Source: Dysidea avara
Taxonomy: Eukaryota; Porifera; Demospongiae; Dictyoceratida; Dysideidae
Direction of reading: 5' to 3'
Length of the DNA: 64,000 nt
Assembly (NCBI RefSeq): GCF_963678975.1
Contig: NC_089279.1
Location: 35,545,933 to 35,609,932 of the forward strand
In this document: positions 16,830-58,640 of the stretch, one piece after another
How the letters are laid out: every line of letters begins with the position of its first letter
Numbering within the stretch: the first letter of the stretch is position 1
Program-made: the position numbers and the translations under genes
Notes under the pieces: generated by a model
Databases searched by the model: none
What the model saw: the letters and a program-made list of their open reading frames with translations, nothing else
What the model was told of the DNA's origin: nothing

Positions 16830-17855
16830 ATGATAGTACTGTACAGTAGGGATCCCTTGCCCCTGCATGCTTCTTAAAATTCCACCATCAAAAGATTCAA
16901 AACCATCCAGCATAGAAACATCTCATGTGACGAAAAGCACCTTTACGGAAGAGTCCTAGTGTTACTAATGCCAGGTACGATAGTAGGGACCACAAAGGTT
17001 TGGGCATGGCCCACCAAAAAAATTACCCAATAACCAACCTCAATTTTCCCTGACAATGATGAGGCAGTATTGGTTAGGTAAAACTAAGCCCAAACAAGGT
17101 ATGGCTCGAAACGCTTTCAACAAGTTACTACAGACTTTTAAATATTTATTAAAGGCTGATTGACTGATGCCTTCAGACAAGCATAACTCGATAACGGCTA
17201 AGGCTACATACAGGCTTGATTTTTTCACTGTTTGACATCGCTTCAGCCAGACACGTGCCTTTTGGCATACTGCAGTACGTACAATGCATTCTTCATGGAC
17301 TTACCAGTGTTCCCTTTTTGTCCCATTCCTCTTTGCTGACAGTGAAAGGTGTCGATTTGGCAATAGCATGTGATGGCTTCTCTTCGTAACGGAAATCATC
17401 CATATTTTTTATAGTGGCTACTTTCATTGCTGAGGTGCTTTTTGAACTGTTCTTGGTTCATAATGTTTTGTGACAGGTTGAACATAGCTGACAATGAACC
17501 ATAATGAATATCTCAATTTTCAGAAGATAATGCATGGGCTCACCAATCATAATAATTATTTTACAAAGTACACAAAAGAATTTGGAATTTTCAACTGGAG
17601 TAGGGACATAACTCATCCATAAAAAGTACTGAAACAAGTTGGAGTAGTCCATGATGTTAAATCACAGTAAAACAATAAGAAGTGTTATATCCCTACTGTA
17701 CTATAATGGAAATTTACAGTAGGGATATAACACTTCTTATTGTTTTACTGTGATTTAATATCATGCACTACTCCAGCTTGTTTCAGTACTTTTTATCGAT
17801 GTGCTATGGTCCCTACTCTAGTTGAAAATTCCAAATAATTTATTTTGTGTACTTG
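16830..17855 (-). repeat. HHE hairpin-headed repeat, copy 1
   Basis: The palindromic head spans about 17566-17852. One arm reads GGAGTAGTCCATGATGTTAA, then ATCACAGTAAAACAATAAGA and AGTGTTATATCCCTACTGTA; the other arm is its reverse complement with about two mismatches per 60 bases. The body runs leftwards and holds an exon-like stretch (minus strand, about 17395-17305) reading EEKPSHAIAKSTPFTVSKEE and then WDKKGTL, ended by a GTAAGT donor-like site. The far end near 16830-16860 has AGTAGGGATCCC followed by TACTGTA/TACAGTA blocks. Confidence 0.7.
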
Positions 17856-17894
17856 CTTTCATATATAAAGTAGAAATTAAACAAGGTGAACATC

Positions 17895-18140
17895 TGTGAC
17901 AGCAGTGGCTCAGTGTTATAGTTAAAGATTTGAGTGTTCAGTACGGAGGTTCCTGGTTCAAACTCTGGTAACTTTTTTTTGACAGTTTCATGCACCTTTT
18001 TTAATCCTATGGTGACTGTTGTATCTAAACTCTTTGATTTACAGTTGTTTGGCTTTTGCTTTTGTAACTCTGTTGTTGGTTTTTCTAACCATCAAGGCAC
18101 TGCTATGATGGCTAGCCAAATTTCAAGTCATTCCCATTAG
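17895..18140 (+). repeat. tRNA-derived SINE-like sequence
   Basis: An A-box-like AGTGGCTCAGTGTTATAG and a B-box-like GGTTCAAACTC lie about 50 bases apart, followed by a T-rich stretch and a unique-looking tail. It begins 40 bases from the end of HHE copy 1. The plus-strand frame 17934-18140 lies over it and is not a gene. Confidence 0.5.
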
Positions 18141-18159
18141 CAGTTTGCCTAGTAGTTGT

Positions 18160-19220
18160 GACGAAATTTTGATCTTTTTTATGCAAGTGAATGTTCATAG
18201 CACCATTGATACTTAGGCCACTTATTTTTAATTTTATGTTTCAGATCCCCCACCTTCATTGCTATGTCTCGCCATCTAAATTTGGCTATTATTATAACAT
18301 CATGCAAGTTTTGAATTCACCATTATTTCATCATTCAGTGCATAACGAAGTTATAAACTAACTATAGAGAGCCCGAATGTAGGTGGACACCTTGACAATA
18401 ATAAAAATTTATTGATTAGTATTCAGTTGTGCTACACTAGTGTAGCTACTTACCAATGTCACAATGGCTTTCTCGGATAGTAGCTGATGCCCTATTAGGG
18501 AGTTACGATCTTTTATTAATCACTATCCTGCTGATCTTAGAAGTGAAAGGGGGGTAATTACTTAATTAAAACCTCCTATAACTCTAATAAAACAGTCAGG
18601 TGCACCCTAAGATTGTAGTGAATAATGATAGAGCCACCTGCCTGCATTGGTTAGATCTGAAACACAAAAATATTAACAGTAAGTGGCCTTATCAGATTCC
18701 TTACAAACTTAGTACATGAATTCACCTTTTTATGCTTTTTATCTGTACCAATTCTGTAGGTAATTGAATTACATGTTTGAGTAACAATTTTTGCAAAGTG
18801 TGTGAAAAGGATAATCTAAAACAAAATAAATACGTGAAACTTTGACTGCCCTTATCTCACAAATGGCTGGAACAAATTTGCCTTGTGGCTACTCTACTTG
18901 GCAGATAGCTATAGTGTAAAAGGGGCCAGGAAGCTACTGTATGCAGTTATGAAAATTGCATTTTCTTTTTTGTCAACATACACACAGTGTGGCATGCTGG
19001 CTGGCTTTCTTGACTAGATGACACACTACTGTGTGTGTTGATCTGGACTTTTGGAACCCTGAATTCCAAAAATCCAGCGATTACCGGATGTTACAGTATT
19101 TTGAGCACTACAGAGCCTGCTCCCACACTTCTGTGGATTTGGACTGACATACTCGCATACTCTTCCCAAACTAATCCAAGGAACTGGACGTATTCTGTTA
19201 AATGTGTTATATAATATGTA
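18160..19220. other. No gene seen
   Basis: AT-rich, with one motif of the form AACTCTAATAAAACAGTCAG near 18583. I looked here for the missing N-terminal exon of the downstream NACHT-LRR gene and found no frame with Death- or CARD-like spacing. Confidence 0.4.
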
Positions 19221-19229
19221 CACATATGT

Positions 19230-19552
19230 AGGGACGGATCCAGACTTATGGAAAGGGGGGGTCAAAAATGAACTGAGGCACTACATTGTCTGGTTTGATA
19301 AGGTGAGACAAAAAAAAAAGGTCACAGCCAGCTGACAATAGCTGCCCACCTTACCAACCACACATTTATAGCTGATAAAGTACATATAAATCCTTAAATA
19401 GTTTCACTACACACTGTTCTAATACTGTGACTACTTTATTAGAGTGACTGCTCTATTAGAGTATCTTGATCTTGGTATACTAAAAGTTTTTGGAGGGGGG
19501 GGGGGGGGGGGGGGTCAAGAGCCCCCCCTGTATCCGCCCCTGCACATATGTA
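19230..19552. mobile_element. MITE with GGATCC-type ends and long G run
   Basis: Left end GTAGGGACGGATCCAG, right end CTGTATCCGCCCCTGCA (inverted, imperfect). Inside are GTGACTGCTCTATTAGAGTA (near 19445) and a G run of about 20 (19494-19514). It is related to the element at 16.28 kb by its ends and to the 37 and 56 kb repeats by the ATTAGAGTA motif. Confidence 0.5.
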
Positions 19553-20152
19553 CATAGATATGTAATAGTTACTGTACATGCATAATAGTTAGCTTTTATG
19601 TGGCGCAATTGATATTTTTGCTCGATTCTTACAAATACAATACACCCTGTATAACCCCATCCCCATCTTACTACTAGCCCCTATGCAGTATTTACAAATA
19701 TATTGAGTCACTTTCAAGTATAACTTTTGGCCACAGCTATTTGGCCCCTGTTTTCTCCTGTACTGTATATGCTGTAAACTCCCTCATCTATTTGATGTGT
19801 GAACATTCCAAATAAGCTGTAGGAAGGACAGGAAAGAAAGGTCTTAGAGAATAAGCTTTGAAACCCTTTGACCCCTATAAAATGCAGCAATCGTGAAAGG
19901 CAGATGCAGGAGGAGATAACACTGTAAAAAATAAATTGTGTACTGCACAACAATGTGTCGCAATATTATATACACCAATTGGCATATTGGTGTGTATACT
20001 GTGACATTTTGGTGTGCAGGACATAAATTTACTTTTTACAGTGAAGAGTATAATAATCAAGTTGCCTGGTCTTGCATACTATATGTACTATAGTAATGTG
20101 CTTGTTGTTAACTTTTGTCAAAATTTTCAATATCAATATTTATTTATTTAAG

Positions 20153-23100
20153 GTGATGAGGGAATTGATACCAGAACACAGTCAGCTAATGATGCAACAA
20201 GAAATACAGAAAACATGCTAAATAGCTTATACCCTGGAAACTTTGTCAATATGCTTTACTCCTGTTACAAGTACCATAGTAACTTACAAATAGAAGAAGA
20301 CGATTTGTATAGTTGGACACCGTGGAATGTAACAAGACATTTTGACAATAAGCTGTCTTCGCATGTAACCCTGTTTGAGTCAGGATATTCATTTCAGAAA
20401 TTTGAAGTAATAAATAAAGTTTCTGAATTGTTTCAGTTAGAAAATAAGTGGAGCCTACAGCCAAAAACAGTGTTGCTTGTTGGAAGTTCAGGTATAGGAA
20501 AAACAACTTTGTGTGCAGAAATAGCCAATCAATGGGGTAAGAAGGAGATATTGCATGATACAAAGTGTTTATTCCTAATAAATTTGGATGATTCTGCTAT
20601 ACAAAAAATATCCAGACTGGAAGATTTGGCATGTTATAGCTTTAAGAAATTTCATCCTGAGTTATCAAACCAACATGTGAGAGAGTTTTTGGAGAATGAT
20701 AATAGTGATATAACAATAATCATAGATGGTTTTAAAGAACCTGATCATGAAAATAACGCATTTCTTACGAGACTGATTCAACGTAGAATATTAAGACAGT
20801 GTAGACTGATTATCACAGTACACCCACTTGCATTGGAAAGAGTACAGAAAATCGTTGATATTAGCCTAAATGTAGAAATACTAGGGTTTACTGAAAATGG
20901 TATAAATGTATGTATACAGCAAGAACTACAAGAGCATGCTAATAAAATCACAGTATTACGTTCATACCTTGATGAAAATAAATATGTTAAGAATCTTTGT
21001 CACGTGCCTACTCTGTTGATGATTTTAATACAGTTTGTTAAGAAAAATAGTTTGTCAAACATTGGAATGGATCACTGGTTTGAACAAGCAATTTTTCGTT
21101 TCGTATGTGCCAGTTCATATCAAGAGGAATCAGATATAACTCACATTTTATATCTTTCAAAGTTAGCATTTGAATCCTTCAGAAACAGGGAATCATGTAA
21201 TTTTGGCTGTTTATGTGTGCAAGAATATTTAGCTGGACACTATATAGCCAATCTTACAAATCCATGTGAACAGTTTGATCTACTTAAAAAATTCCTATTT
21301 AAATCTGACCTTATAGGCACTTGGGCTCAATTGAACTTGGGCAGCATAGTTAATTTTGATTCACATTCTATTTTCTGTCACATCGAAGTAAAAGGTAGTA
21401 TGTCAAGCTTGCCAAGATTTCATTCTTTATATGGATTCCTTGACCAGTTTAGTCATGAAGATTTTCAAATTTGCAGTAAAATTATATTCCAAGCTATATA
21501 TTTTGTGCACAGTGAGGAAAAATACTATGAAAGGCATGAAATTATACTTAAAGATTGGTATTATAATGATAGGGAATATGATAAGAATCTATATAATTTG
21601 TTTTGTTGGAACAAGGTGTATCTTTCATTGCGTGATGCCTGTAATAGTGATTGTCGTGGAATTGAACTCATTTTATTTCACAAGTACATGCCAGATTTAT
21701 CATTTTACAAAGCAATAAGACAGCTACTACAAAAGCAACACATTGCAGTGATGTTACGAAATAGTAATGCACTGCTTGGATATAGGGCAAGCTCATGCCA
21801 ACTAACTGAAGGACTTGCATTGACCTATTTACTAAATGCTTTGATACTGAAGTTCTGTCACATTACTTGTGATATTATCTGTCACTTGAATGTTGAATAT
21901 TTAGAATCATTATTGATTTCTGATTGTAAATGGAGTGATGTTAATGTATCAATAACCAGTATATTGCAAATGCTAAAGAAAACCTGTACTTTAAAATATC
22001 TCAACCTAAGTTGCAACAATTTGCCAGGAGAAGTAGCAAAAGATTTAGCAGAGATAATTCATAGTAATACATCTATTACAGCACTCTATTTAGCTAATAA
22101 TAGATTACGTTCAATGGGAGGCATAGTTTTACAAGCATTGAAGGATGTTTCAACACTTAAAGTACTTGACTTAGATAACAACAACATGACTGGTGAAATT
22201 TCTGAAGAATTAGCTGGTGTTATCAAATGTAATCCTTACTTAGAAGAATTGCACTTGTCTGGTAATGATTTGCAGTCATCAGCAGCAGTGATTCTTCATG
22301 CTTTACAACAGCACTCAAAATTGAAATTGCTAAACTTGAATGAAAATAAGATACCTGATACAATTGGGGAAGAAATGGCACTTGTAATTAAATGTAATAT
22401 TTCTCTTCAAGATTTACGTTTAGGTTTTAATAATTTGAAGTCATCTGTAATTCCAATTTTACTAGCACTAAAGGAATTTAAATTGAGACTTAAAGTATTA
22501 AATTTAAATGGTATTGGCATGTCAGGGGAAGTAGCAGTACTTGTGGCAGATGTCATCTGTAATTTTTCTCCTGTAGATTTACAATTGTGTAGCAACAGTT
22601 TACATTCTTCAGCAACTGTAATCATGCAAGCATTACAGGAGGCTTACTTTTTAAGAATTCTTAATTTGAATAACAACAACATTTCAGAACAGGCAGCTCA
22701 GCATTTAGTAAATGTCATTGAACGTAACTATCGTTATTTGGAGGACTTGCGTTTAAGTTCTAATAATTTACAGTCATCTGCCTGTTTAATTTTAGAAGCT
22801 TTGAAGAGGAAACCTAAATCAAGAAAAGCTTTATTTTTGAAAATACTTAATTTAAATAACAATAACATGTCTGCAAAAGTTACAGAACTATTAAGTGATG
22901 TAATAAGAGAAAATTATTTACTAGAAGAATTACACCTATCTAATAATAATTTTCAGCAGTCTGCAGTTGTATTTTTGAAAGCTATGAAGTCACTTTCCAG
23001 GCTAAAAGTTCTAAATTTAAATGGAAATAAAATGTCAGGCAAAGTAGCACAAGATTTAGCACATGTCATTGAAAATAATCGTTATCATCTACAAGGCCTT

Positions 23101-25362: not shown

Positions 25363-25526
25363 AGAAGACTTCAGTTGTCATTATAAAAATACATGCACGA
25401 CATTTTTTCTTTGAACTGTGTGGAAATGTAGAATATATGTAGAATATCATTGTCACAGCAATTTTAAGCGCCCTCAATCATGTTACTAGATATAATTTGA
25501 GGTATTGGTGTGAACATAGCTACTGT

Positions 25527-26051
25527 CAGTGTTGGGAGTAACGCGCTACTTATGTAACGCGTTACGTAATATTATTACTTTTGTAGTAACAAAGTAATAT
25601 AACGAAATACGCTATAAAAACAGGTAATATAATGCAAGATACTTTACTTACAAATGTAATGCGTTACCTAAGTAATATAGCTACTGTAACGAGTCTAATA
25701 TTACGTAATATTATTACTACAAGTAACGAAGTTACTAATCTCGTTAGTTATCCTCTGAGTAATGCCTATAGCCACAGCGAAGTAACGAGGCCTACTGAAT
25801 GAAGCTTATTCACCAGCTTCTTACTTATAAACAAAATTTGTATATTGTCCAACAGCACAATCATGTCACGTGATAAGGTGGTAGTTTCACACGTGACAGC
25901 TTAAGGCTGTGGACACAAAGTAATATATTATGTAATATTATTACAGTTACTTTATTTTATGGGTAATATGTAACTGTAACTAAATAGTTCTGTTGCAAGT
26001 AATATGTAATATGTAACTAGTTACTTTTACAAAGTAACTTGCCCAACACTG
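25527..26051. mobile_element. hAT-type MITE with 8-bp target duplication
   Basis: The element begins CAGTGTTGGGAGTAACGCG and ends AAAGTAACTTGCCCAACACTG. It is flanked by the exact 8-bp repeat GCTACTGT (25519-25526 and 26052-26059). The interior is made of GTAAC/GTTAC-rich blocks with no coding sequence. Diverged relatives occur at 44.3 and 56.1-57.3 kb and as fragments around 52.4-55.2 kb. It lies 165 bp after the NLR-A stop codon. Confidence 0.85.
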
Positions 26052-26059
26052 GCTACTGT

Positions 26060-28520: not shown

Positions 28521-28524
28521 TAAT

Positions 28525-29110
28525 AGGAATTTTAAGTGTGATTAAGGATCATAGCCATAAAAGGTAGTAAATGAGGAGGTCGCCTACACCTGTACATATA
28601 TATTAATGGACATTTAATTCCTAATTCAGTCATGGGTATAGACTGAAGTACTGATGAATATCTGCAAGCGTAGGGAGCCTCCCTTGTTTCCCTACTGTTT
28701 TTCTATGATCCTTAATCAAACTGAAAATTTCTATTTTCTTTCTACATGCTTTTTTTGTATATAACATAATTATGACTGGTGAATCAGCGTATACCACATC
28801 AAAAGAAAGAATGGTGCCATACTTAATGTTTTCATTTGAACAAACGTCCCAAGTATCAATTACTGAAAAAGTAATTTGCACTTCACTTTCAGCTGTCAGC
28901 CAGTTACACAGCGTTACAAAAGAACATTATGAGAAACACCTCTGTAATCCAGTCACTGTGGAAGTATCTGTTACAAATGTAGGGAAGCCACCATGCACTA
29001 GTTATCACAAATCGACACTGACCTTGCTCTGTCATGTCAGTATTACAATATAGCTATGTGGAAAACCCTACTGTTGCACTGAACTAAGTATGGCTTTTCA
29101 ACATTGTTAT
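28525..29110 (+). repeat. HHE hairpin-headed repeat, copy 2
   Basis: The head is an imperfect palindrome at about 28527-28737: GGAATTTTAAGTGTGATTAA with GGATCATAGCC on the left, and its inverted counterpart CTATGATCCTTAATCAAAC... on the right, with TTAATTCCTAATTCAGTC near the loop. The body continues rightwards with ATGACTGGTGAATCAG, ACCACATCAAAAGAAAG and the block that reads GKPPCTSYHKSTLT (near 28980). The arm sequence differs from copies 1, 5 and 6 while the body is homologous. Confidence 0.65.
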
Positions 29111-30290: not shown

Positions 30291-30347
30291 TAGTTTTCAA
30301 CAATGATGGAGAATAGTTTTAATATAACCACCTTTATATCTTGACAG

Positions 30348-34345: not shown

Positions 34346-34399
34346 GATATTATCAGGGCTACCAGGGCTTTCAGCTATCATTATAGCACTTTAAACTAA

Positions 34400-35770: not shown

Positions 35771-35773
35771 TAG

Positions 35774-42347: not shown

Positions 42348-42479
42348 CTATACAGAATGTGTAACAACAAGACTTACACACTTATTTGTTACAGTGTAAT
42401 ACACCAATTTCATAACTAACAAGTGTAAGGAAAAATTGGAAATTGTACAACATAGAAATAAAAGGCAATGAAACAAGTA

Positions 42480-43290
42480 CACCTGCAGCTATACTAGCTG
42501 ACATTTAATTCCTACTTCAGCCTGTCAATAGTATGTCATGACTGAAGTAGGCTTAAAAATAATGTCTCCTAGTCTTGTAGATTATCTTCCTAGTTTCATT
42601 GCTTTTTTCCCCTAAAACGTAAAATTTCTAGTTTTTCCTTACTCTTATTATGTACTCTTGCTTACACCTGTTTACTTTTTTGCAGTAACAGAATTCATTA
42701 CCATCACATACCACATCAAAGTAAAGAATGTGCCAGACACATTAATTGTGTGACTGAATGTGAGTCAATGACTAAAATACCAAGTTGCCATTCTGCACAG
42801 CATTACAAGCAAAGAACAGTATAAAAAGTGCTTCATGCAACATGCAATCAATCTAGTCACACCAAAGAAAATAAAGCATTGATGTCATGCCACGAGATAC
42901 ACCAATCAAAACCTAAGTGGTAGTGGGAAAAGATATGGGACACCAAGGAGGACAAAGGCAAGTCTTGGGCCATAGTGATGTCAATCAGGAAAGATTGACA
43001 TCACTATCATAGCCTTATCCATGGTCAAGTTGCTTGGCTAGCTGGAGGCATTAGGCAATCAGTCAGTCAGTTTGCAGAAAATGCATTTAAATAAAAATTC
43101 ATTGAAACATGTTGGAAGGGTTTGGGGTCGTTCTGAAGACAATAATGAGTTTGGTTACACCTATAGTCAATACTGCCAAGCTGTTATGAAGTGAGACTGG
43201 TTTTTGGGTGATCATAATATTCTTATAAGAAAGTCTTAGCTAACCTCCATCATCCCCTACTATACACTGCTGCTGTACTGTATGATAATG
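42480..43290 (+). repeat. HHE hairpin-headed repeat, copy 3 (decayed)
   Basis: A head remnant (GACATTTAATTCCTACTTCAG ... TGACTGAAGTAGG) is followed by body blocks ACCACATCAAAGTAAAG, AGCATTACAAGCAAAG, GGGACACCAAGGAGGACA and GGCAATCAGTCAGTCAG in the same order as the other copies. It lies directly upstream of the first visible exon of the ROCO gene. Confidence 0.5.
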
Positions 43291-44317: not shown

Positions 44318-44814
44318 CAGTGTTGGGACATTTACTTATTCGTTACATATTACATATTAGTTACAGTTACATATTACCCATAAAATAAAGTAACTATAAT
44401 AATATTACATATTATATTACTTTGTGTCCACAGCCTCAAGCTATGACGTGTGAAACTGTCACCTCATCAGTGATCACTTGACATGATCGCATTGTTGGAC
44501 AATGCGTAAATCTTGATTATAATTCTGGTGAATAAGCTTCATTCATTAATTCGAGGTGGGCTTCGTTACTTCATTGTGACTAGACATTACTAAGTGGATC
44601 ACTAATGAGATTAGTAATTTCGTTATTTGTAGTAATAAAATTACTTAATTTAGACTTGTTCAGTAACTTCATTACTTAGGTAGCATGTTGCATTGTGAAG
44701 TAAAGTAACTTGAGTTATATTACTGGTTTTTATAGCATATTTCATTATATTACTTAGTTACCACAAAAGTAATAATTATTATGTAACGTGTTACATAACG
44801 TTACCCCCAACACT
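44318..44814. mobile_element. hAT-type MITE, older relative of the 25.5 kb element
   Basis: Begins CAGTGTTGGGACATTTAC and ends GTAACGTGTTACATAACGTT followed by ACCCCCAACACT. The interior follows the 25.5 kb copy in inverted orientation (TTGGACAATGCG, GAATAAGCTTCATTCA, TTCATTGTGACTAG). Flanking bases do not form a recognisable 8-bp duplication, which fits an older insertion or one edge lost. Confidence 0.7.
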
Positions 44815-46400: not shown

Positions 46401-46419
46401 AGGCTACCACTAACAACTG

Positions 46420-46655: not shown

Positions 46656-46799
46656 CACTTTTGGATCACCCTCATTGATAATGCTGCAATGTCTATTCCT
46701 TCTTTCCTTCTTGATACGTATATTCACATCATTTGCAGCAAAAAGTTCTTTCTCACATTTACTACATTGATAGTTATACACAAGGAGAAGGAAAATTAG

Positions 46800-47470
46800 T
46801 GTGATCATAGCCATAAAAAGTAGTGAAACAAGGGAGGTTGCCTACACCTGCAAATACATATGCTAGTGCACGTGGATATTTAATCCCTATACCCACAACT
46901 AAATTAGGGATTAAATGTCCACCAGCATATTTGCAGGTGTAGGTGACCTCCCTTTGTTTCCACTACTTTTATCCCTAATTGCACTTCAAAATTCCTGCTA
47001 CTTGTCTGTCACGTTTTCAAAACGCAATTATGACTGGTAAACCGGTTCATCAAACGAAATAATGACACCATAATTAACGCTTTTGTCTGAACGCACGCCC
47101 CAATTAGCAATTACTGAAAAGTGAAGTAGCCATTATGCTTCATTGTAGTGTTAAAAAACGGGAGAACATTATGAGAAGTGCCTCTGCAATCAGTCTAGTC
47201 ACTACGGAAATACAAAAGATTTCGTTACATATGTAGAGAAGCCATATGCACTAGCTACCACAAATCAACACCTTATGCTGCTAACAAGGAGAAATGGGAC
47301 ACAAAGGAAGACAACAGTAAGTCCATAATTGCATACACTGGCTATATAGGTATAATAATGCTAATGCATCACAACCATCCCTATAAGGAACTCTAGATCA
47401 TACTGGTGACAGATAACAGGTATTAAACGCTCAAGTATTAAGTATAAAATACTCCTTTGCACCTTGGGTG
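46800..47470 (+). repeat. HHE hairpin-headed repeat, copy 4
   Basis: The head is a palindrome at about 46800-47000: GCCATAAAAAGTAGTGAAAC then AAGGGAGGTTGCCTACACCT, inverted as AGGTGTAGGTGACCTCCCTT then TGTTTCCACTACTTTTATCC, with TTAATCCCTA / TAGGGATTAA next to the loop. The arms are the same type as in copy 2. The body carries ATGACTGGTAAACCGG, GAGAACATTATGAGAAGTGC and GAGAAATGGGACACAAAGGA, then a GTAAGTCC site. Confidence 0.65.
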
Positions 47471-47489
47471 CTTATGGGCTCCTGATACT

Positions 47490-47780
47490 AGTGTATTTAA
47501 AAATTATTAAGAGATTCAATAGGAATCGATAAAATTAAGTGATAAAAACTAGTGAAACAATATAATATGAATATTATTACAGCATAGCTTTGTGGGAAAG
47601 TTCTTGTGGAAAAATTCTTACAATGACATGTCATAACAATATTATTTTGTTCAATGCCAAAATAAGAATTTTCCCACAAAGCCATGTACTATCATTTGTA
47701 TATCTTGTTTCAATAGTTTTTATTGTTTGGATCATGCTTCATTTAATACAGTAGTATGTTTAGTTTTTTTTGTTGTTGTA
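47490..47780. repeat. Imperfect palindrome (second hairpin type, older copy)
   Basis: GATAAAAACTAGTGAAACAA ... TTACAGCATAGCTTTGTGGG on the left is mirrored by CCCACAAAGCCATGTACTAT ... TTGTTTCAATAGTTTTTATT on the right. The following TTTAGTTTTTTTTGTTGTTG is shared with the sequence after the sharp palindrome at 53.7 kb, so the two are relatives. Confidence 0.55.
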
Positions 47781-48298
47781 GGGTATAGCTATGGCATACA
47801 AGTGTGATTGTTCTATTGTGATTTTACTATGATTGAATACACTAATCATAGTATATTACCTATGATTAGAGTATCTTGAAGTGACTGGCCTACTGGGCAT
47901 GGTCTTTCCATGCCATCGTGTTACCAGTAAGAGGCGTAGTCGATATGACTAATTGCAATAAGTACATTTAGATCACCAAGGAGCATGTTGTGGCTCTCAA
48001 TCATTATTGGTGCTGCTAGATTGTAAAGGGGCATGATCAATCCTGACATGCAGCTATGAGTACGGTGTACTAGCTAGTAGTACCATACTTCTTACAGCAG
48101 TTTGAGTGTTTTAAATAATTTATGGCATCTAAATACGGAAAGTGTCATTATGGAATAGTAATACCACTGTAAGGCTTTGTTGCATGAAGATTGGAAAGGC
48201 AAGGCACAGAATACACATGCCACTGGTGAGTTTGATATTGTGGTGTAATATGGTGGTCACATGATGCATTGTTTAGCCTCTAGGATTATGATTGTGAT

Positions 48299-48390
48299 CA
48301 GGATGGCAGGCAGGCAGGCAGGCAGGATGGCAGGCAGGCAGGCAGGATGGCAGGCAGGCAGGATGGCAGGCAGGCAGGATGGCAGGCAGG
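48299..48390. repeat. (GGCA)n minisatellite
   Basis: About 90 bases of CAGG/GGCA units with interspersed GGATGGCAGG, arranged as a higher-order repeat of roughly 16-24 bases. Confidence 0.85.
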
Positions 48391-48475
48391 TAGCTAGATT
48401 AAAATCAGGTTTGGGAGGTTTTCTTTAAATTCAGTATTCGTTCTTCTGGAATTATTTCATTGAATTTAATGCTAC

Positions 48476-51400
48476 AAGTACACAAAAAAATTAGAAATTT
48501 TCAACTAGAGTAGGGATCATAGCACATTGATAAAAAGTACTGAAACAAGCTGGAGTAGCGCATAATATTACATCACAGTAAAACAATATGAAGTGTTATA
48601 TCCCTACTGTGCTCAAGATGGAAATGCACAGTAGGGATATAACACTTCTTATTGTTCTATATACTGTGATTAAATATTGTGCACTACTCCAGCTTGTTTC
48701 AGTACTTTTTATTCATGTGCTATGGTCCTTACTCTAGTTGAAAATTTTAAATTTTTTGTGCACTCTTTGTTAACTACAATTGTTATGACTGGTGAACACG
48801 CATACCACATCAAAAGAAAAAAGGTGCTGTGCACTCTAGCTATCAATCATCATCTGAAAGGTGAAATATCTAGTACACTTCGTTGTCAGCTATGTTCAAC
48901 CCATTATGTAGCATTGCGAATCAAGAATTATTCATAAAGCACCACTGCAATCAAAGTAGCCACAATGGAAAATACGGACAATTTCCATTATGAAAGGAAG
49001 CCATCATGTGCTACGTCAAATCAATACGTTCGACTATTAGCAAAGATGAATGGGACACAAAGGAGGACACTGGTAAGTCCATGAAGAATGCACTGTACGT
49101 ACTGCAGTATGCCAAAAGGCACCTCTTGGATCGAAGTGATGTTGAACAGTGAAAAAATCAAGCCTGTAGCCTTAGCCGTTATCAAGTTACACTTGTCTGA
49201 AGGCAGTTACTTAGTCAGTGGAAAGTTCTGTTAAATATATATATATTTTTACTGGTTTTTGCAATTGAATTCGTTGCCTTTACAATTGACTTCGTCCCGT
49301 TTGCATTAGAGTTTGTCACCTTTGCAGTAGAATTTGTCCCATTTGCAATTGATTTGGTCACTTTTGCATTAGAATTCGTCATGTTTGCACAAGAATTCAT
49401 CTGTAACAAGATTGGCAGCTGCTGTTAACATGAAAACAAGATGTAGAGAAGCTCATGTATTTCAACCACCATGTATTTTCGGATACAATATTTCCTAGAG
49501 GAGCAACAAGACTCAATCAATTATTACACTATTACGAAGACCTATGACTATAACCTCCATATATAAAATATAAAAGGATTTGGTTAGATCGTGTGGCTGC
49601 AGTGACCTTCGAAAACCACTGTCCAAAAACGTTGATGCTCAGACAACGACATGTGAACTCGGATGCCACCCTCTACACTCTTCTCATGCAACTTCAAAAG
49701 CTATTGTGTGGTAGTGATTGATAGAGCTAACCTTGAGCTACCCCATGATATAAGCAGATTAATTTTTTATTAACTGGCATTGTAGATAGCTGGTTTTGCC
49801 CAGAGGTGGTAACTTGATCAAACGTTGGATGCAAAAAATCATTTTATTTTCGGACTTTTCAATTATTTGTGATAATTTTGGTATTTTATGACTTTCAGTA
49901 AAGCACTAGTTTAAAAGGTTTTTAATGCAGCAATTGAAACACAGGTATAGGGTGTTTTTCGTCAATTCTAGGCGGAAGAAGACAAGCAACATGTAGCTGC
50001 AGTATAGTACGTCTATACAAATTAACTAAATAAGGCCACTCCTTTTACATTTTTGATATTATCGAAGTCAGCAATAAACTGCAACAGTGTGTGAAACCTT
50101 GCTATATACCACATATATGACTGTTCTATTAGAGTAGTTTATAGGTTGAGTGCATTTCACTTGTTAATTTTCATGTTGTAAATGCCCATATTTTTTCTAG
50201 AATCTGTTCTGGAACAAGTCATAGATGTTGGGTCATGCAAACACGAAACCCTGTAAAATTTAACCAGCAAAATTCGCTCAAAATTATATCATATATGTGG
50301 TAGCGAGGTCTCACACACTGTTGCAGCATATTGCTGACCTCCACTATCTGAAATTAACTTTAATAATATCAAAAATGTCAAATGAGTACTGTGAACCGGT
50401 GTGGCCTTGTTTAGCTAATTTGTATACACATACTATACTACAGCTATATTTAGCTTGTCTTCTTCCGCCTAGAATTGACGAAAAACACCCTATACCTGTG
50501 TTTCAATTGCTGCATTAAAAACCTTTTAAGCTAGTGCTTTACTGAAAGCCAAAATTATCACAAATAATACAAAAATAAAATATTTTTTTGCGTCCGACGT
50601 TTGATCAAGTTACCACCTCTGGAAAAAACCAGCTATCTACAATGCCAGTTAATAAAAATTTAATCTACTTATATCATGGTGTAGCTCAAGGTTAGCCCTA
50701 TCAATCACTACCACACAATAGCTTTTGAAGTTGTATGAGAAGGGTGTAGAAGGTGGCATCCAAGCGCACATGTCGTTGTCTGAGCATCAATGTTTTTGGA
50801 CAGTGGCTTTCGAAGGTCACTGCAGCCACACGATATAACCAAATCCTTTTATATTTTATATATGGAGGTTATAGTCATAGGTCTTCATAATAGTGCAATA
50901 ATTGATCAAGTCTTGTTGCTCCTCTAGGAAATATTGTGTCCGAAAATACATGGTGGTTGAAAATACATGGTGGTTGAAAATACATGGTGGTTGAAAATAC
51001 ATGAGCTGCTCTAGCAGCTACTCCATGATCTTGTTGAAGTACAACTGTTGTAAACAACTCTTTATAAGGCGATAATTCTTCAGCTACGGTTTCTTCAGCA
51101 ACATTCGCAACTGTGCTTCGCCATTAGCAATGGGTGTGGTCACTCGCAAACAAGCTAATTAACTCTAATGGCTTCGCATAGAACCAGCTCCAATTACCTT
51201 GTAGTGTCTCAAGTGGTATTCTCCATGGCAAAAATGATTCACTTTGTGATGAGCAGCTGATTTCTTGCAGCACTGTAGTTATGACGAATTCTTGTGCTAA
51301 CACAATGAATTCTAAAGCAAAAGCGACTAAATCAAATCAATTGCAAAACCGACGAATTCAATTGCAAAACCGACGAATTCAATTACAAATGGGATGAATT

Positions 51401-51795
51401 CTATTGCAAAGGTGACGAACTCTACTGCAAACGGGACGAAGTCAATTGCGAATTCAATTGCAAAAACCTGTAAATTCTATAGCAACTTGTTGAAAGTATT
51501 TCGGGTCGATCTGAAGGTTTATTTGGGCTTAGTTTTACCTAACCAATAGTGTCTCATCGTCATCTGGGAAAAACAAGGCTGGTTTTGGGTAATGTTTTTT
51601 CATGGGCCATGTCTACTCCTTTGTGGTCCCTACTATACAGTATTATCGTATTGTATGATATCTGGCATTATTAATACTAAGACTTCTGTATAGGCACTTT
51701 TCATCGTGTAAGATACTTCTATGGTGGTTTTCATGGGATAGAATTTTACAGGGTATACATCATTTTAGGGGGATCTCTACTCTACAGTACTGATG
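48476..51795 (+). repeat. HHE hairpin-headed repeat, copy 5, split by a foldback element
   Basis: Palindromic head at about 48476-48766 (GGAGTAGCGCATAATATTAC, AGTAAAACAATATGAAGTGT, TATATCCCTACTGTG and the inverted arm). The body begins ATGACTGGTGAACACGC, then TCGTTGTCAGCTATGTTCAA, GAATGGGACACAAAGG, AGGACACTGGTAAGTCC and AAGGCAGTTACTTAGTCAG. At 49251 it is interrupted by a 2.2-kb foldback element. It resumes at 51471 with TAGCAACTTGTTGAAAGTAT, GGGTCGATCTGAAGG, TAGTTTTACCTAACCAATAG. The uninterrupted order is seen in the copy at 57.7-58.6 kb. Confidence 0.75.
49252..51470. mobile_element. Foldback DNA element with long inverted arms and subterminal tandem repeats
   Basis: Ends CTGGTTTTTGCAATTGAATT and (inverted) CAGGTTTTTGCAATTGAATT are flanked by TA on both sides. 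The left arm (about 49252-50121) and right arm (about 50284-51470) are inverted copies over at least 700 bases, separated by about 160 bases that include GACTGTTCTATTAGAGTAG. Next to each end lie about 7-9 degenerate tandem units of roughly 18 bases of the form TTTGCAATTGAATTCGTC. The right arm has extra sequence and a triplicated GAAAATACATGGTGGTT (about 50942-50999) that is single on the left. No transposase is evident, and the frames inside are chance. It sits inside HHE copy 5 and is therefore younger than that copy. Confidence 0.8.
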
Positions 51796-52689
51796 AATGC
51801 TGTATTGAGTATACTCGACTGCTCTATTAGAGTACAGTCAACTGCACTATTAAAGTGTCTCAACTTTTTAGAAAAAATTCAAACCTGAGGGCTCATGTCT
51901 TCTCTGTAGATCCTTCCCTAAGAGATTACAGTATTGTTGTGCTGTGCTGTATGCTGTTACCAACTCACGTATATGTAACTAATTATTGTTTTGGGTTCCT
52001 GCTGAAAACTTAGTATTCTAAATTTTGTGGGGGATTTCTGAAACCCTTGCAAACTCCCTCTACACCCCTGCTCACACTCACATTGTCTTCACATCTCTAC
52101 ATAGCAAACAAACCTTGTTGGTGCATTCTATTAGCATACAGCATCCAGCTGAGCTGCACATGCATCTTCCATCACAGTGGTCACCTGCACACCCATTTAG
52201 TAGTATGGCAAACCTTTTAATAGATGAACTTCACCTCAAATACAAACAAGTTATGTGACTACAAAAATTCCCACAGATTAGAACAAGTAATTAAGCAAAC
52301 ATGTCATTAACATGAAACAGCAGCATGCATTTACGTACCACACAAAACTATTGGAGACAGAACGTATCAAACTATTGTCAGTGTTGAGTAGTTACTCTTA
52401 AACTCATTACTTCCATGCATGCCATGTAATGCATTTCAGATTACTTAGTTTTAAAAGTAACTAGCAACATATTAAGTTGCATATCACTTTTTAGCAACAG
52501 GTGTTAGCTAAGTTGTCTCGCTATGTCTAGAGCAATGCCTGCTACTATAAAGCATAACTAGCACACCTGTTTGCCTATAAACAATTAAGCTACTGAATTA
52601 AGCTATGTCGCTGAATAATCACGTGAATTGATTAATGATGCTCTTTTGTTAGAATTAATACAGTGTTCAAAATGAAACAGTGTCAAAAC

Positions 52690-53000
52690 TCAAATTAAAG
52701 AATTATGTTTGCATACCTTCTATAAAATCATCCATGAATGCGTAAATTTATCAGTTCCAAGTTACATCCAATATTCTACACAAGCCACAAAGGGCAATCA
52801 CTTAAAGATCATTCAACCATTTACCAGGATTGATGCATACAAATTTAGTTTATATCCTAATGTCGTACAGTTATGGAATAATTTACCTCATTATATGGTA
52901 TCAGCACAATCTCTTGACTTTTTCAAAGTGTTACTCACAATATTAATTAATTACAACATAATTATTGTATTATACTCACGCATACGAGGTTTACAATAAT
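52690..53000 (+). mobile_element. LINE 3'-end fragment
   Basis: The frame reads MHTFYKIIHECVNLSVPSYI then QYSTQATKGNHLKIIQPFTR, IDAYKFSLYPNVVQLWNNLP and HYMVSAQSLDFFKVLL. This is the typical C-terminal end of the reverse transcriptase polyprotein of CR1/L2-type LINEs (compare RAINDWNSLPNHIVNAPTLN in the 33 kb LINE). Only about 100 residues remain. Confidence 0.7.
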
Positions 53001-53692
53001 GTATCACTACTAACATTACAGTAACACTACCATTATGTAACACGTCAGTTAGTATTTCATTAGATAACAATATTACATAGTGCACTACTCCATATGTTGC
53101 TTGCGGTGTACCATGTCAATAGCTTTGACCACTGAGTGATTAGACAGGGTTTGGGAGGAAGGTCAGGCACACAAGTTAGCTAGGCGGTACAACTGGCACT
53201 AGCCTCAAGCACCAGCTAGCAGCTGATTTCGAGTATAGCTCTTGGGTAGATGCCCTGATGAATGATCTTTTTAACCAATGCAACCGGCATGAACATGCAT
53301 TGACTAGTTTTAGTTAATGCTGTTATACAGTGACATTATGCTTACATTGTGCTTAAGGGCTCCCTGGCATCTACCGCGTAGTTAGCTCCTTTTCTTTAAA
53401 AGTCAAACCATCCACCCTCTGTAGCTATGGTCTTATTATCCTAACCAGTCATCTTGGGGTGCAGAGCATGTGTACCCATTGCCCAAGCACATGTGGTGTT
53501 GCATCTACAGATGCAACACCACATGTGCTACATTTCTACATTAATGTGCTACATTTCTTATGGTAGTAATTATCTAACAGATAGTTACTTTACATAAGTA
53601 ATGTGTTACTAAAGTAGCGCATTACTACTCGTTACTACAATATTATTACCTAACGAAGTACTAATGGTTACTTAACTAGCGAGTTACTGTTA

Positions 53693-53960
53693 CTAGTATT
53701 TTAAAAAATTGTTAATTTAAAAATGAAGTAGGGATCTATGCAATAAAAAGTAGTGAAATAAGAGATGAATGATGGTATTACAGCATAGCTCGATGGGAAA
53801 GTCCCTACTTTGGCATTGAGCAAAATTATAGCTAATGTGCCAAAGTAGGGACTTTCAAATCGACCTATGCTGTAATACCATCATTCATCTCTTATTTCAC
53901 TACTTTTTATTGCATAGATCCCTACTTCATTTTTAAATTAACAATTTTTAAAAATACTAG
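53693..53960. repeat. Near-perfect 268-bp palindrome (second hairpin type)
   Basis: Each arm is about 125 bases with only a few mismatches: CTAGTATTTTAAAAAATTG, TTAATTTAAAAATGAAGTAG, GGATCTATGCAATAAAAAGT, AGTGAAATAAGAGATGAATG, ATGGTATTACAGCATAG and AAAGTCCCTACTTTGGCA, then the inverted copy after a loop of roughly 20 bases. It would fold into a long hairpin as RNA or cruciform DNA. Related, older versions are the 47.5 kb palindrome and the HHE heads. Confidence 0.85.
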
Positions 53961-54960
53961 CTTGTTTGGTTTTTTGTTGTAGCATAGCTAGTTACAATGT
54001 AACTTGTGAGTAGTTATTACGTCCCTGTACAGCTTATTAAAGTACATACTGTGCCAAAATTGGAAGCACATAGACCCATAGTAGTATGCATAGCTTAATT
54101 ACCTTTGATCGTAGTCTGAGTAGCAGTGGCGCTCAGACTATGACCTGTCTCAGTATGATGGTCTGCGTTCGTTCTATTCACCCAGGCCGGAAGTTGTTTG
54201 AACAAACAGGCCTTTTCAGCTGTCTGGAGCTTAGTCTCAACTAACAGGGATGAAGTAATACAATTTCCACTTGAGTACTGTATCCAATCAATCGCTGACT
54301 TGTCTTGCCATCTGGCACTGAGTGGCTGAGTCAGTGTGTTCAGAGGAACAAGCCGTCGAGTATCAGTCCGTCTATTAAGTGACAAATCTCTTCATCAATT
54401 GCAGTCCAGGTGTTGGCAAAAGTCAAAGTGACAACTCAGCAGCCTTAATGTGTCACGTGCAACACTTGAAATTATAAGTACCCCACTCTTTCCGCAGCAT
54501 TAGCGCTTTCTGAAATAATTTTGTGGTGTCTACAGGAAAGTGTTGATGCGGAAAATTAATGCCTCAGTATGGTTTTGATGCTTGAAGAAGAAGACCACCA
54601 ACCTGATAGATAAAAGGAAAGACAAGCGCACAGGGCGTACACTCGTCAGAACCCCAAAAAGCATATCCCACCAGTGAGTTTGTTGTTGTGGCGTAAAATG
54701 GTGACCATGCACTGCTTTGTTTGGGCTCTAGGCTTGTGACTGTGGTCAGTGAGTGAGACGAAATTTCAAGTTTTGGAGATTTAAAAAAAATTCTATATAC
54801 GGTCACTGGTAAGTGTTTTCTTGTTTTTAATGTTGTATTTCATGTTTAATACTATTCTGTAAAGGTGATTTTCGTGGTATGAGATGTCTCTAGGATGATT
54901 TTAAGGGCGGAGTTTTGAGCAGCGTGCGTCATTTTCGGAAGGATCCCTACTTAAATAGTA
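53961..54960. repeat. Body of the second hairpin-type repeat
   Basis: The part 54620-54770 (CACCAGTGAGTTTGTTGTTG, TGGCGTAAAATGGTGACC, TCTAGGCTTGTGACTGTGG) matches 48215-48300 (CACTGGTGAGTTTGATATTG, TGGTGTAATATGGTGGTC, TCTAGGATTATGATTGTGA). The end AGGATCCCTACTTAAATAG recalls the far end of HHE copy 1. The minus-strand frames at 54095-54806 lack known motifs. Confidence 0.45.
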
Positions 54961-55199
54961 CTACCATACTGTTTGATATTTTTATGTAATGGAGCACTAA
55001 CGCATTACTTACTAATGCATTATTGTAATATTATTACCAAATGAAGTACCTTTATACACTGTGTAATAATAGTATAACATATTACTACGTAGTTACTTTT
55101 AAACTGAAGTAACATGCAACTGTAATGTGTTTCACTGCAGTGGCAATATTGAGTAATAAATAATATATTACTTTTTAAAAGTAGTGGCCCAACACTGGA

Positions 55200-56040
55200 T
55201 GTGAGATCTCAACAAGAGTTTACAGAGGTACCAGATTCAAGGACCGCATGGTTTTATCACTTTTCTTTGGTATCTTAGTCAGACTAATGTAATAGTATTG
55301 CTATGAATCAGATGGGTTGTGGTGGGAAAGCAAAAGAAACATCATGAGAAGTAGCACTAGACATTACGTTGCCACTGCAGTGATAGATGAATACAGGTTA
55401 CTAACAAGGGAAGTCACCTGACCTGATTAACCAGTTTGTAACCTTACAAAGGGCACATGTCTGAGGATTCCTAGAGCTCCGTAGCTTCTAAAACTTGCCT
55501 AGGGCCAGCTTTAACATTTACCTTTTTTTTGCTTTTTCAAAGAATTTGTCATGTGAATTTGACTGTGTGTTAAAACAGTTTTGTTGCATGAATATTATTT
55601 TTCAACTATCTACAGAGAGACTTATAACATAGCTGAACTCTCTACAGGGTGACTTGTAAGGCGATTGAATCCTTTCTATAGGGTGATTTGTTTGAACTCT
55701 CTAAAGGGTAAGTGGTTTATCCTATAGGTGTGACAATAATTATATTTTCATGAATAATTGTTAACAATTCTGTGACTGTTTGTTGTAAATTGGTACCAAC
55801 AATAATATTGGTACCAAGAGATTTGCCTTTATACCTACTTATGTATACCAAATTTCAAGACAATCAGATCACATGTTTGGATGGCAGTTTTTGTAAGTGA
55901 AGGACAAAAAAATAGTCAATTTTTGAAGGCCCAATTCTCAGGAATGTCTGGAGCAATTTTGCTCAAATTTACTATGTGGGCTGTGGGCAGCATGGAGCTA
56001 TGTATGCATGAAAATCACACTATTGTTCTTCTTGTAAATA
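55200..56040. other. No gene seen
   Basis: Contains a loosely repeated CTCTCTACAGGGTGACTTGT / CTCTATAGGGTGATTTGT / CTCTAAAGGGTAAGTGG triplet (55610-55715). No coding evidence. Confidence 0.35.
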
Positions 56041-56057
56041 AGTAACACACTGGTGTG

Positions 56058-57338
56058 CAGTGTTGGGACAGTTACTTTTTAAATGTAACTTGTTACATAT
56101 TACATATTAATACAACCGAACTATTTAGTTACAGTTACATATTACCCATATAAAAAGTTACTATAATAATATTACATATCACTGTAGATTGCATGACCAT
56201 TGTCAAAAAATTTTTTAAGGTCAATGATATCACATGAAAAGTCATAGGCGGTGGAAGAGGGGGTGCTGGGAGTGCTCCAGCACCCCAACTGTTTTACTGG
56301 GAGTGCTGAGTACCCCCAACTCAAAACTGTATTGCGTAACAGTCGTCACGTGAACTTCCAGAAACTTGTCAATCACGATCGAAATACTCTAATAGAGCAG
56401 TCACCCTAATACAACAGTCGAGCATGTATTAAAATAAAGTATTAGTACTTGCATTTGAGTAACAGCTAAAATCACCAAAAATGCCTCCAAATTCAATCTC
56501 CTGACACCTAATTTTAAAAATTTTCCAGGGGGGGCATGCCCCCAGACCCCCCTAGAATTAGCATGCACTTTGCACACCTACTACTACCACCATAAATTTT
56601 GGGCACCCCCAACTTTAGCATCCTTCTGCCTCCTATGAAAGTAACCAATCGAAAACGATTATAGAAATTAAGTTGCAGCCATCTACCAGTGTCTGATTCA
56701 CAGTTGCTCATGCTTGCATCGGTAGACCTGAGGTGGTGAACTGTTTGGCAACACATCATGTTTAATAAAGCCTGCTGAAGAAGTTGGTAGCGCGTATGCT
56801 ATTTATCAGTAAAAGAATAGTTCGTGAGTCTACTGAGTAAGATACAGGCATGAGTAACTACTTGCATGTGAATCGGATAGATTGGCTGTAACTTAATTTT
56901 AAACTCAGTCTATAATGGATTTTGTTTGGTTACTTTTCATGTGATATCATTGACCTAAAAAACTTATTGAAAACAGTCACGCAATCCACAGTATATTACT
57001 TTATCACATGATATGATTGTGTTGTTGGACAATGTGCAAATCTTGGTTATAAGCAAGAAGCTGGTGAAGAAGCTTCATTCAGTAGGCTTCGTTACTTCAT
57101 AGTGGCTAGGTGTTACTCAGTGATCACTAACGAAATTAGTAACTTTGTTACTAGACTCGTTACAGTAACTTCATTACTTAGGTAACGCGTTACATTTGCA
57201 AGTAAAGTAACTTGAGTTATATTACCTGTTTTACAGCATATTTCGTTGTATTAGTTCGTTACCACAAGAGTAATACTTATTATGTAACGTGTTACTTACG
57301 TAATGTGTTACTTATGTAACATGTTACCCCCAACACTG
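56058..57338. mobile_element. hAT-type MITE with 8-bp target duplication, carrying a nested element
   Basis: Begins CAGTGTTGGGACAGTTAC and ends AACATGTTACCCCCAACACT plus G. It is flanked by the exact direct repeat CTGGTGTG (56050-56057 and 57339-57346). The hAT sequence is interrupted at about 56180 and resumes at about 56993 in the order expected from the 44.3 kb copy. The intact duplication shows that the outer ends belong together despite the insertion. Confidence 0.85.
56181..56992. mobile_element. Nested DNA element with about 60-bp inverted ends
   Basis: Left end ACTGTAGATTGCATGACC ... TAAGGTCAATGATATCACAT; right end ATGTGATATCATTGACCTAA ... GTCACGCAATCCACAGT, inverted over about 60 bases. 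Inside is a block of the dispersed repeat group (ATACTCTAATAGAGCAGTCA, GGGGCATGCCCCCAGACCCC). It is inserted in the hAT MITE at 56.06-57.34 kb and is therefore younger than it. Confidence 0.7.
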
Positions 57339-57671
57339 CTGGTGTGGTGTGCCAGCTTCTTGGACCACACAACACTACTTCTTCATCTGGTACAAATCAG
57401 CCACAAAATTCTATAAATGTGATCACCTTTCCATGTGTAATTGGCTAAACAAAGTGAACATAATAAGGAATCAGATAAGGCTTTTACTTCACAAGTTGTC
57501 ATTCAGCAAGACATTAATTTTGGTACTCTGTTTTATTAAGTTTCAGGGAAATAAAGACAAAACATGATCAAACTTCTGTGCAATAATGACCATAAAGGTC
57601 AAATCTGTGATGGTACTGAATCTAAACATTCATGCCATAAGGAGTACTATTGATGTAGTAAGTTTCATACT

Positions 57672-58640
57672 TTTATCATAAGGTAGGGACCACAAAGGTT
57701 TGGGTGTGGCACATGAAAAAACATCACCCAAAAGCCAACCTCACTTTTTCCTGATGACGATGAAGCAGTATTGGTTAGGTAAAACTAAGTCCAAACAAGC
57801 CTTCAGATCGACCCAATACACTTCCAACAAGTTGCTATAGAAACTTAAAAAAATATTAAAAGGAATTTTCTACTGAGTGACAGACAGACTGAGTAACTGA
57901 TGCGTTCAGACAAGTATAACTTGATAATTGCTAAGGCTACGGGCTTGCTTTTCACTGTTTGACGTTGCTTCAGTACCTTTTGGCATACCGCAGAACATAC
58001 AATGCATTTTCATGGATTTACCAGTGTCCTCCTTCATCTTTGCCAACAGCGAAAGGTTTTGATTTGGTGGTAGCATGAGATGGTTTTCCTTCATATATAT
58101 GCCTTATGGAAATTGTCCGTATTTTTCATAGTGGCTACTTTGATTGCAGAAATGCTTTTCGAACAGTTCTTAATTTATATTGCTGTGTAACAGGTTGAAC
58201 ATAGCTGACAACAAAGCATAATGGATACTTACAATAATTGATAGCTTTCTTTCTAAAAATTGGAATTTTCAACTAGATTAGGGACCATAGCACATCAGAG
58301 ATAGCACATTGATAAAAAGTACTATTTATTTCCATTAATGTACAAACTCAGATATGAGTATTACCATACATGTATATGTAAGTGTGATAAGTAAGTAGTG
58401 TACTAGCTGGAGTAGTGAATGCACAATATTACATCACAGTAAAACAATAAGAAGTGTTATATCCCTATTGTGTATTTCCATTGTGGTATTTTTGAGCAGC
58501 ACAGTAGGATATAATACTTTTTATTGTTTTACTGTGATTTAATATCGTGCACTACTCCAGCTTTTTTCAGTACTTTTTTATTGATGTGCTATGGTCCCTG
58601 CTCTAATTGAAAATTTCAATTCTTTTTGTGTACTTGTACA
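57672..58640 (-). repeat. HHE hairpin-headed repeat, copy 6, ending near the NLR-B stop codon
   Basis: Palindromic head at about 58259-58636 (GGTATTTTTGAGCAGC near the loop; arms with AGTAAAACAATAAGAAGTGT and CTGGAGTAGTG), with about 85 unrelated bases inserted in one arm. The body runs leftwards: TTGAACATAGCTGACAAC, the exon-like block reading EGKPSHATTKSKPFAVGKDE (minus strand near 58080-58025), AAACAAGCCTTCAGATCGAC. The head ends about 50 bases from the NLR-B stop codon, so it may lie in that gene's 3' untranslated region. Confidence 0.7.

Follow-up and report, generated by a model that had tools for sequence, protein, structure and literature searches.

Within a 64,000-nucleotide stretch of the sponge Dysidea avara (assembly GCF_963678975.1, contig NC_089279.1, positions 35,545,933 to 35,609,932 of the forward strand; hereafter the window), several repeats consist of a long palindrome, here called the head, joined to a body. 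What kind of unit are these repeats, and how are the two arms of a head kept alike? An initial annotation had described at least six such copies with a palindrome and a one-sided homologous body. This description holds at 16.97-17.86, 48.48-51.66 and 57.67-58.64 kb, while the copies at 28.5, 42.4 and 46.8 kb are older relatives with weaker palindromes. The repeats are non-autonomous, protein-less mobile elements, all one kind of unit. We put a probability of about 75% on their being rolling-circle (Helitron-like) elements, served by a RepHel protein in trans, whose 3' hairpin terminator would have been enlarged into the head, with the hairpin driving arm copying and loop flipping. The window is part of one contig (C8) of a 550.8-Mb genome in 108 contigs.

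A Single Unit with Fixed Ends

The genome was searched with the copy at 16.8-17.9 kb, and most of the matches scored (the best 40 of 9,477 first-look candidates) start sharply at one common base. From reading the aligned copies, the fixed 5' end is ATCATACAGTACGATAGTWACTGTATAGTAGGGACCA. The layout of this main family is A^TCATACAGTACGATAG, body, 280-bp palindrome, GTACTTG^T, where the caret marks the element boundary. A 36-base 5'-end motif has 882 matches in the genome at up to 2 mismatches, and a motif of the last 35 bases of the 3' end has 4,302 at up to 3 mismatches; the reversed controls gave 0 in both cases. The body-side arm, when read outward, also ends in GTACTTG, followed by TTTGTTAACT in most copies (21 copies). 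The fixed 5' end and the exact 3' end had been missed by the initial annotation, as had an element of a second family at 53,693-54,976 (minus strand), described below.

Among 30 copies fetched through the 5' end, 15 have an intact 3' end by motif inside the stretch retrieved, one of them (L018) being a nested case. In intact copies the 5' end is followed by a body of some 640 bp, part of which is repeated in tandem, and then by the palindromic head, after which homology ends at ...CTGTGTACTTG. The remaining copies are truncated, nested, altered or missed by the motif, and one (L011) retains the first 194 bp alone. Loci were also drawn by the 3'-end pattern. All 11 of these loci have a body on one side of the head and none on the other; the outer arm is missing or cut in L084 and L087, and L081 has a rearranged head. 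Therefore head and body form a single mobile element of about 0.95-1.4 kb, with the head as its 3' end. By our reading of the aligned copies, the main family also carries an 11-bp inverted repeat, AGTAGGGACCA, in subterminal position (some 25 bp inside the 5' end and 34 bp inside the 3' end), and a short palindrome near the 5' end (TACAGTA-7-TACTGTA).

Two side observations concern these copies. On the minus strand of the main-family body (e.g., L031 and L013) there is an open frame with a peptide like ...DFRYEGKPSRATTKSTLFAVSKDEWDTKEDTGKSMK..., and GTAAGT is found at the DNA of its last TGK. This frame may be a captured exon; neither of the two translations tried had a Pfam match. Separately, L050 and L053 (C14, 4.61 and 5.02 Mb) lie in an inverted segmental duplication that is 99.86% identical over 4,425 bp, with an element copy on each side.

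Insertion Between A and T

At loci not chosen by the 5' pattern, and allowing the end motif at most 3 mismatches, the base before the 5'-TC is A in 21 of 24 matches. On the other side, GTACTTG is followed by T in 35 of 37 cases. These counts include a few duplicated loci (e.g., L050/L053, L026/L027, L019/L020) and one 16.8-kb window site twice. Pre-insertion sites were recognized for four main-family insertions. For L017 the junction is uninterrupted in all 38 other places scored (best 40 matches of 1,419 candidates), and no gap falls at the junction in the alignments inspected. L032 is inserted in the body of another copy at TTA^TTTAA. L002 is an element nested inversely in another at TTTTAGTA^TATG, and the same stretch is uninterrupted in L027. 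For the paired loci L026 and L027, two paralogues that lack the element can be aligned starting at the T next to CTTG. From flanking bases and pre-insertion sites together, the main family inserts between A and T without duplication or loss of target sequence, which is Helitron behavior (PMC4778049, PMC6544945). Target duplications, which the initial annotation had proposed looking for, are absent at all four sites.

L002 was also considered as a full foldback (body-head-body'). Its halves are only about 85% alike and its junctions show inverse nesting; therefore a self-primed head-to-head copy was rejected.

Two Arms Kept Alike

To compare arms, 46 head pairs were extracted and 42 were oriented by their body; L022_801, L054 and L052 were dropped for want of a body call and L002 because it has body on both sides. 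Across the 42 heads the two arm consensuses are identical at 137 of 137 columns. The distance between the arms of one copy is 0.0636, compared with 0.0776 for permuted partners, and none of 10,000 permutations was as low. Like arms of different copies are further apart (means of 0.0820 and 0.0737), and bodies of different copies differ by 0.144 on average (528 pairs, 33 copies). These distances bear out the contention of the initial annotation that the two arms of a copy resemble each other more closely than the bodies of different copies do, and show that the arms are kept alike. At 61 cells the same non-consensus base stands on both arms, where 24.5 are expected; of the 404 non-consensus cells in total, 337 are variant on one arm only and 6 on both arms but with different bases.

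The head at 17.56-17.86 kb, folded as single-stranded DNA, has a computed stability of -123.3 kcal/mol against -24.5 ± 3.7 for 100 shuffles (z -26.6). By this calculation, so stable a hairpin is a likely site for template switching. In yeast genes, template switching equalizes the arms of inverted repeats and inverts their spacers, and does so reversibly (PMC8604942).

Loops in Both Orientations

Between the arms lies a loop of about 26 bp, which reads GCTCAAGATACCATAATGGAAATGC or its reverse complement. Its orientation relative to the body was counted genome-wide by exact patterns anchored on the body side of the head. In total 673 loops were oriented, 364 one way and 309 the other, with 0 and 0 in the controls. 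In the 42 oriented heads, 24 loops have orientation I, 12 have orientation II and 6 are unclear. A tree was built from 38 bodies (4 of the 42 were too short), 33 of them labelled; 3 of its 35 branches are starred and most are poorly supported. On this tree loop orientation changes at least 7 times, 4 of which are forced by well-supported branches. Orientation is independent of divergence, with ratios of 11:5 and 11:6 in the younger and older halves, respectively, and 6 of the 10 closest body pairs agree in it. With changes on the tree and little tie to body kinship or divergence, flipping is therefore recurrent.

One flip can be placed after insertion. L026 and L027 lie 557 kb from each other on C7 and represent a single insertion within a duplicated segment. 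They align over 2,392 bp at 93.5%; the alignment spans the insertion site and takes in flanking sequence on both sides (about 840 bp on the 5' side, 392 bp on the 3' side). Their loops are opposite, and therefore at least one flip occurred in place, after the element had landed. Aligned in inverted orientation by BLAST, the two heads are 95.7% identical over 299 bp with 1 gap, whereas the straight alignment has 272 identities in 289 aligned columns and 9 gap columns; the difference stems from the loop. Straight and swapped pairings of the arms both give 10 mismatches and 1 gap, which fits inversion of the whole head and inversion of the loop only equally well. Conversion from another dispersed copy is a possible alternative source of the difference. 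The suggestion that the head is renewed when the element moves thus describes something that may happen but is not required, since this loop was turned without movement.

A Second Family with the Same Layout

The element at 53693-54976 (1284 bp, minus strand) represents a second, P family. It runs from 54,976 to 53,693 as A^TCAAACAGTATGGTAG, the subterminal motif AAGTAGGGATCC, a body unrelated to that of the main family, a palindromic head and CTAG^T; its start can be read as A^TCAAACAG. Its ends, A^TC...CTAG^T, are canonical for Helitrons, and its layout is identical to that of the main family. The head occupies 53693-53960 (minus strand), with arms of 123 nt at 97% and a loop of 22 nt. The palindrome at 53.7 kb had been considered as a stand-alone head without a body; this was rejected, as it is the end of the 1,284-bp element with its own body. 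The flanking A and T were seen in a single copy.

When the genome was searched with the P head (best 40 of 2,519 candidates scored), the matches at all 39 places outside the window were found to start no more than 9 bases from the same terminus. The matches stop about 36 bp into the body in 19 of the 39 and reach the end of the query, or nearly so, in the other 20. This pattern suggests that closely similar P heads occur with more than one kind of body, which Helitron termini would be expected to do, although truncated copies could look alike. The initial annotation had asked whether heads and bodies occur independently. The outcome is mixed: in the main family all 11 heads share one body, but the P matches that stop early and the unrelated bodies of the two families point the other way. 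Patterns for the orientation of the P loop gave 1 match (the window itself) versus 0, being too specific to this copy. In addition, the repeat that hosts L017 is a common one and overlaps the P-family body in the window (54590-54788; also 48191-48302), and therefore L017 may lie in a P-family copy.

Relation to Known Helitrons and a Proposed Mechanism

The initial annotation knew of no named superfamily with this layout. The ends, the A^T target and the lack of target duplication are nevertheless Helitron-like, and one family has TC...CTAG. Canonical Helitrons (Helitron1; Helraiser/Helibat, PMC4778049; insect families, PMC6544945) share several features with these repeats: the 5'-TC, seen here in the main family and the P-family copy; an A^T target that is not duplicated; a hairpin close to the 3' end; many non-autonomous copies; and, for the P-family copy, a 3' end of the CTRR type (CTAG). 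They differ in having a hairpin of 16-20 bp that ends 10-12 nt before the 3' end. Here the main family ends in CTTG, the palindrome of 270-290 bp reaches the terminus, and the loop is found both ways. Lacking CTRR and the short hairpin, the main family is therefore called Helitron-like and is not filed as Helitron1.

Other branches of the group offer partial parallels. Helitron2 (PMC3627910) and FoHeli (PMC5148889) also have a 5' palindrome and a subterminal inverted repeat. Here the 11-bp repeat and the 5' palindrome lie further inside than in the published Helitron2 family (PMC3627910), with the 5' repeat copy away from the very terminus; the TC and CTAG/CTTG ends are Helitron1-like, and the target is A^T, in contrast to the T-rich targets reported for some of those elements. 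The Helentron-derived DINE-1/HINE elements (PMC4067079) are likewise protein-less, with subterminal inverted repeats, a 5' palindrome, internal tandem units, a 3' palindrome and no target duplication. They differ in preferring TT targets and in a 3' palindrome of 5-10 bp (PMC4067079), whereas here an A stands before the insertion and a T after it. Arm homogenization and reversible spacer inversion, the marks of template-switched inverted repeats, are found here as in yeast (PMC8604942) and in template switching at RNA stems (PMC8794818). Those published cases concern a few loci with 2-5 bp of spacer changed, compared with hundreds of dispersed copies, arms of about 137 bp and loops of about 26 bp near equilibrium in D. 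avara. In the portions of the open literature covered, Repbase lying outside the search, no Helitron with a long terminal palindrome or a flip-flop loop was recognized. The repeats are best placed in a known, Helitron-like kind, with an unusual flip-flop terminus.

For the movement of these elements we infer the following scheme. A RepHel protein supplied in trans would nick at the 5'-TC and displace one strand. It would be stopped at the 3' hairpin, much as in the Helraiser model, where the short 3' hairpin is a terminator that makes the helicase pause and thereby allows nicking of the 3' tetrad (PMC4778049). The head would be such a terminator, made larger by the presence of a further 3' terminus in inverted orientation. 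The hairpin may extrude in the chromosome or in a single-stranded intermediate, and template switching at replication, or recombination between the arms, would then copy arm onto arm and turn the loop.

Possible sources of the protein were sought in the genome, which holds at least 150 matches to Helitron_like_N (the best 150 of 230 candidates were scored). Comparing 145 of these 150 matches with 100 of the 882 5' ends gave 1 pair within 25 kb, at 16.7 kb. Across 20 Helitron loci there was one weak match to the 5' end (L070), which lies inside a reading frame. The full-length coding copy envisaged by the initial annotation was looked for in these searches, and no autonomous partner was identified. 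As a separate observation, two large sets of RepHel frames occur genome-wide, several of about 1,600 amino acids and with canonical ends where these were read, which looks like recent Helitron activity in this genome.

Several results weigh against the Helitron-like reading and its flipping mechanism. Besides the CTTG end and the palindrome that reaches the terminus, the two abundant autonomous Helitron families whose ends were read end differently from these repeats. In-place conversion between arms looks weak, as only 6 of the 118 copy-private variants are on both arms and 112 are on one. Nor is within-copy likeness concentrated near the loop, with ratios of 0.85, 0.77 and 0.86 from inside to out. 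The count of 364 versus 309 is slightly off 1:1 (binomial p 0.037), and orientation on the body tree is at most weakly clustered (shuffles average 9.4 changes; for the two states, 29 and 19 of 500 were as low). The in-place flip rests on one locus pair, and in a second duplicated pair, L019/L020, both loops have the same orientation. With few private variants shared and no gradient on the loop side, the arms were therefore equalized mostly in source lineages, with modest conversion after insertion. Most of this homogenization may have taken place in source elements, perhaps during transposition.

Alternative Explanations

The last point leads to the strongest competitor, which we consider possible though unlikely: flip and arm renewal both occur in transposition, where the palindrome, once folded in an intermediate that is single-stranded or circular, would be copied anew or resolved, giving each new copy a random loop orientation, in a manner likened to hairpin transfer at parvovirus or poxvirus ends. 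A loop ratio near 1:1, the independence of orientation from divergence and the homogenization of arms mainly at the source are all as this account would have it, and the Helraiser model does include a single-stranded circle (PMC4778049). It does not accommodate the flip in L026/L027, which post-dates insertion, and no integrated head-to-head dimer was found, the sole candidate (L002) being a nested insertion.

A more far-reaching version, which we regard as improbable, has transposition or replication itself proceed via a hairpin-ended intermediate, with the 3' palindrome folded, copied and resolved in each round as in rolling-hairpin replication. If true, loop orientation would be redrawn and the arms equalized each round, and the element would be a Helitron relative with a hairpin-transfer step. 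Parvoviruses have hairpin ends of this flip/flop type, in which a terminal palindrome occurs in two orientations. In contrast to these viruses, the repeats have no viral genes, one palindromic end, Helitron-like insertion and at least one flip in a resident copy.

The flipped loops could also be assembly errors at palindromes, given that arms of about 137 bp at more than 90% identity are hardly orientable by short reads. The absence of any N in 361,937 bases and contigs of up to 65 Mb point to long reads, and make this explanation very improbable. Slightly less credible again is that the stem is kept by selection for an RNA hairpin, such as a small-RNA precursor, through compensatory changes. 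The very stable fold (computed as DNA) and the changes shared by both arms fit this proposal, whereas most variant cells (337 of 404) affect a single arm, and selection on an RNA with a set loop would not be expected to leave that loop free to flip; an Rfam scan of the window at curated thresholds gave no match, which weighs neither for nor against it. Least likely of all is an ordinary terminal-inverted-repeat element or foldback (miniature inverted-repeat transposable element, FB) whose body is captured sequence: inverted repeats are large and the P-family head alone can be read as a TA-flanked palindrome, but the repeats lack inverted repeats at both ends with target duplication, having the palindrome at one end only with a one-sided body in 11 of 11 heads, the empty sites without duplication refute it for the main family, and the foldback-like L002 is two nested elements.

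Copies and Neighboring Features in the Window

Three copies in the window belong to the main family. Copy A (16966-17855, plus strand) has an approximate start, as its 5' end is partly lost, and ends in GTACTTG^C, with C as flanking base instead of T. Its head (17566-17855, plus strand) has two arms of about 137 bp around a loop at about 17703-17716; the arms match over 94 nt at 94%, and about 290 bp match their own reverse complement at 87%. Copy E (48475-51658, minus strand) has its 5' end, A^TCATACAATACG, at 51658 and its 3' end, GTACTTG^T, at 48475. The arms of its head (48475-48764, minus strand) match over 96 nt at 90%, and its body is split by a 2.2-kb insert at about 49252-51471. Copy F (57665-58636, plus strand) has a degraded 5' end and an approximate start; it ends in GTACTTG^T at 58636, and its head is broken by about 90 bp at 58297-58385.

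Copies A and E, 31 kb apart, are each preceded by a stretch like the P-family 5' part (window 16811-16965 and 51659-51810), and share the flank TAATGCCAG(A/G)TA. This may reflect nested insertion at one site or a compound element moved as one. The insert within copy E (window 49252-51471, minus strand of copy E) is a large fold-back element whose arms span 400 nt (93% identity) and 157 nt (92%). Its ends are rich in 15-bp units of the type GCAATTGAATTCGTC, and its termini read ...GGTTTTTGCAATTG and CAATTGCAAAAACC...

The older relatives, at 42.4-43.3, 46.8-47.3 and 28.5-29.0 kb, are about 61-71% identical to the main family, with one 51-nt piece at 84%. Copy C (42420-43285, minus strand), with the second head type, has its 5' end, A^TCATACAGTACAGC, at 43285 and its 3' end, CACTTG^T, at 42420. 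Copy D (46781-47326, minus strand) is without its 5' part; its head arms carry GGGAGGTTGCCTACACCT and it ends in CTCCTTG^T at 46781. Copy B (28522-29034, minus strand) is uncertain at both ends. Two of the three thus also end in CTTG^T (42,420 and 46,781). Their palindromes are weaker, the arms spanning 61 nt (75% identity), 27 and 23 nt (93% and 87%), and 33 nt (91%). By our reading of the alignment, their heads have an outer arm motif of the type ATAAAAAGTASTGAAACAAG in common with the main family and differ in the inner part. Since the older relatives carry this second head type, they explain the two arm types noted initially. The half-head reported near 15.7 kb is indeed a lone head arm (15713-15838, plus strand), with no inverted partner of 20 nt or more within 15,600-15,950.

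The window has five large reading frames. They include NACHT-LRR genes (20.2-25.4 and 58.7-61.0 kb), a Roc-COR gene (40.1-42.4 kb; COR-A above the cut-off, Roc below it) and a reverse transcriptase fragment (33.7-34.3 kb), a content that by itself points to a eukaryotic and probably animal host. A further dispersed repeat occurs at 25571-26051, 44357-44776 and 56058-57232, in inverse orientation and with mutual identity of 83-93%.

Significance

Work on how palindromes are tolerated and altered by chromosomes has often relied on individual engineered sites. Judging by its 4,302 arm-end matches, this genome would hold about two thousand heads. With 673 oriented loops between nearly the same arms, rates of hairpin inversion and arm conversion could therefore be measured under natural conditions, through comparisons among individuals, among cell types or between duplicated loci. 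As the loops occur in either orientation about equally often, the genome is a natural record of DNA hairpins flipping over. For Helitron-like elements, the repeats raise the questions of whether an outsized terminator helps them to end transfer at a precise point and whether a hairpin stage is possible in their replication.

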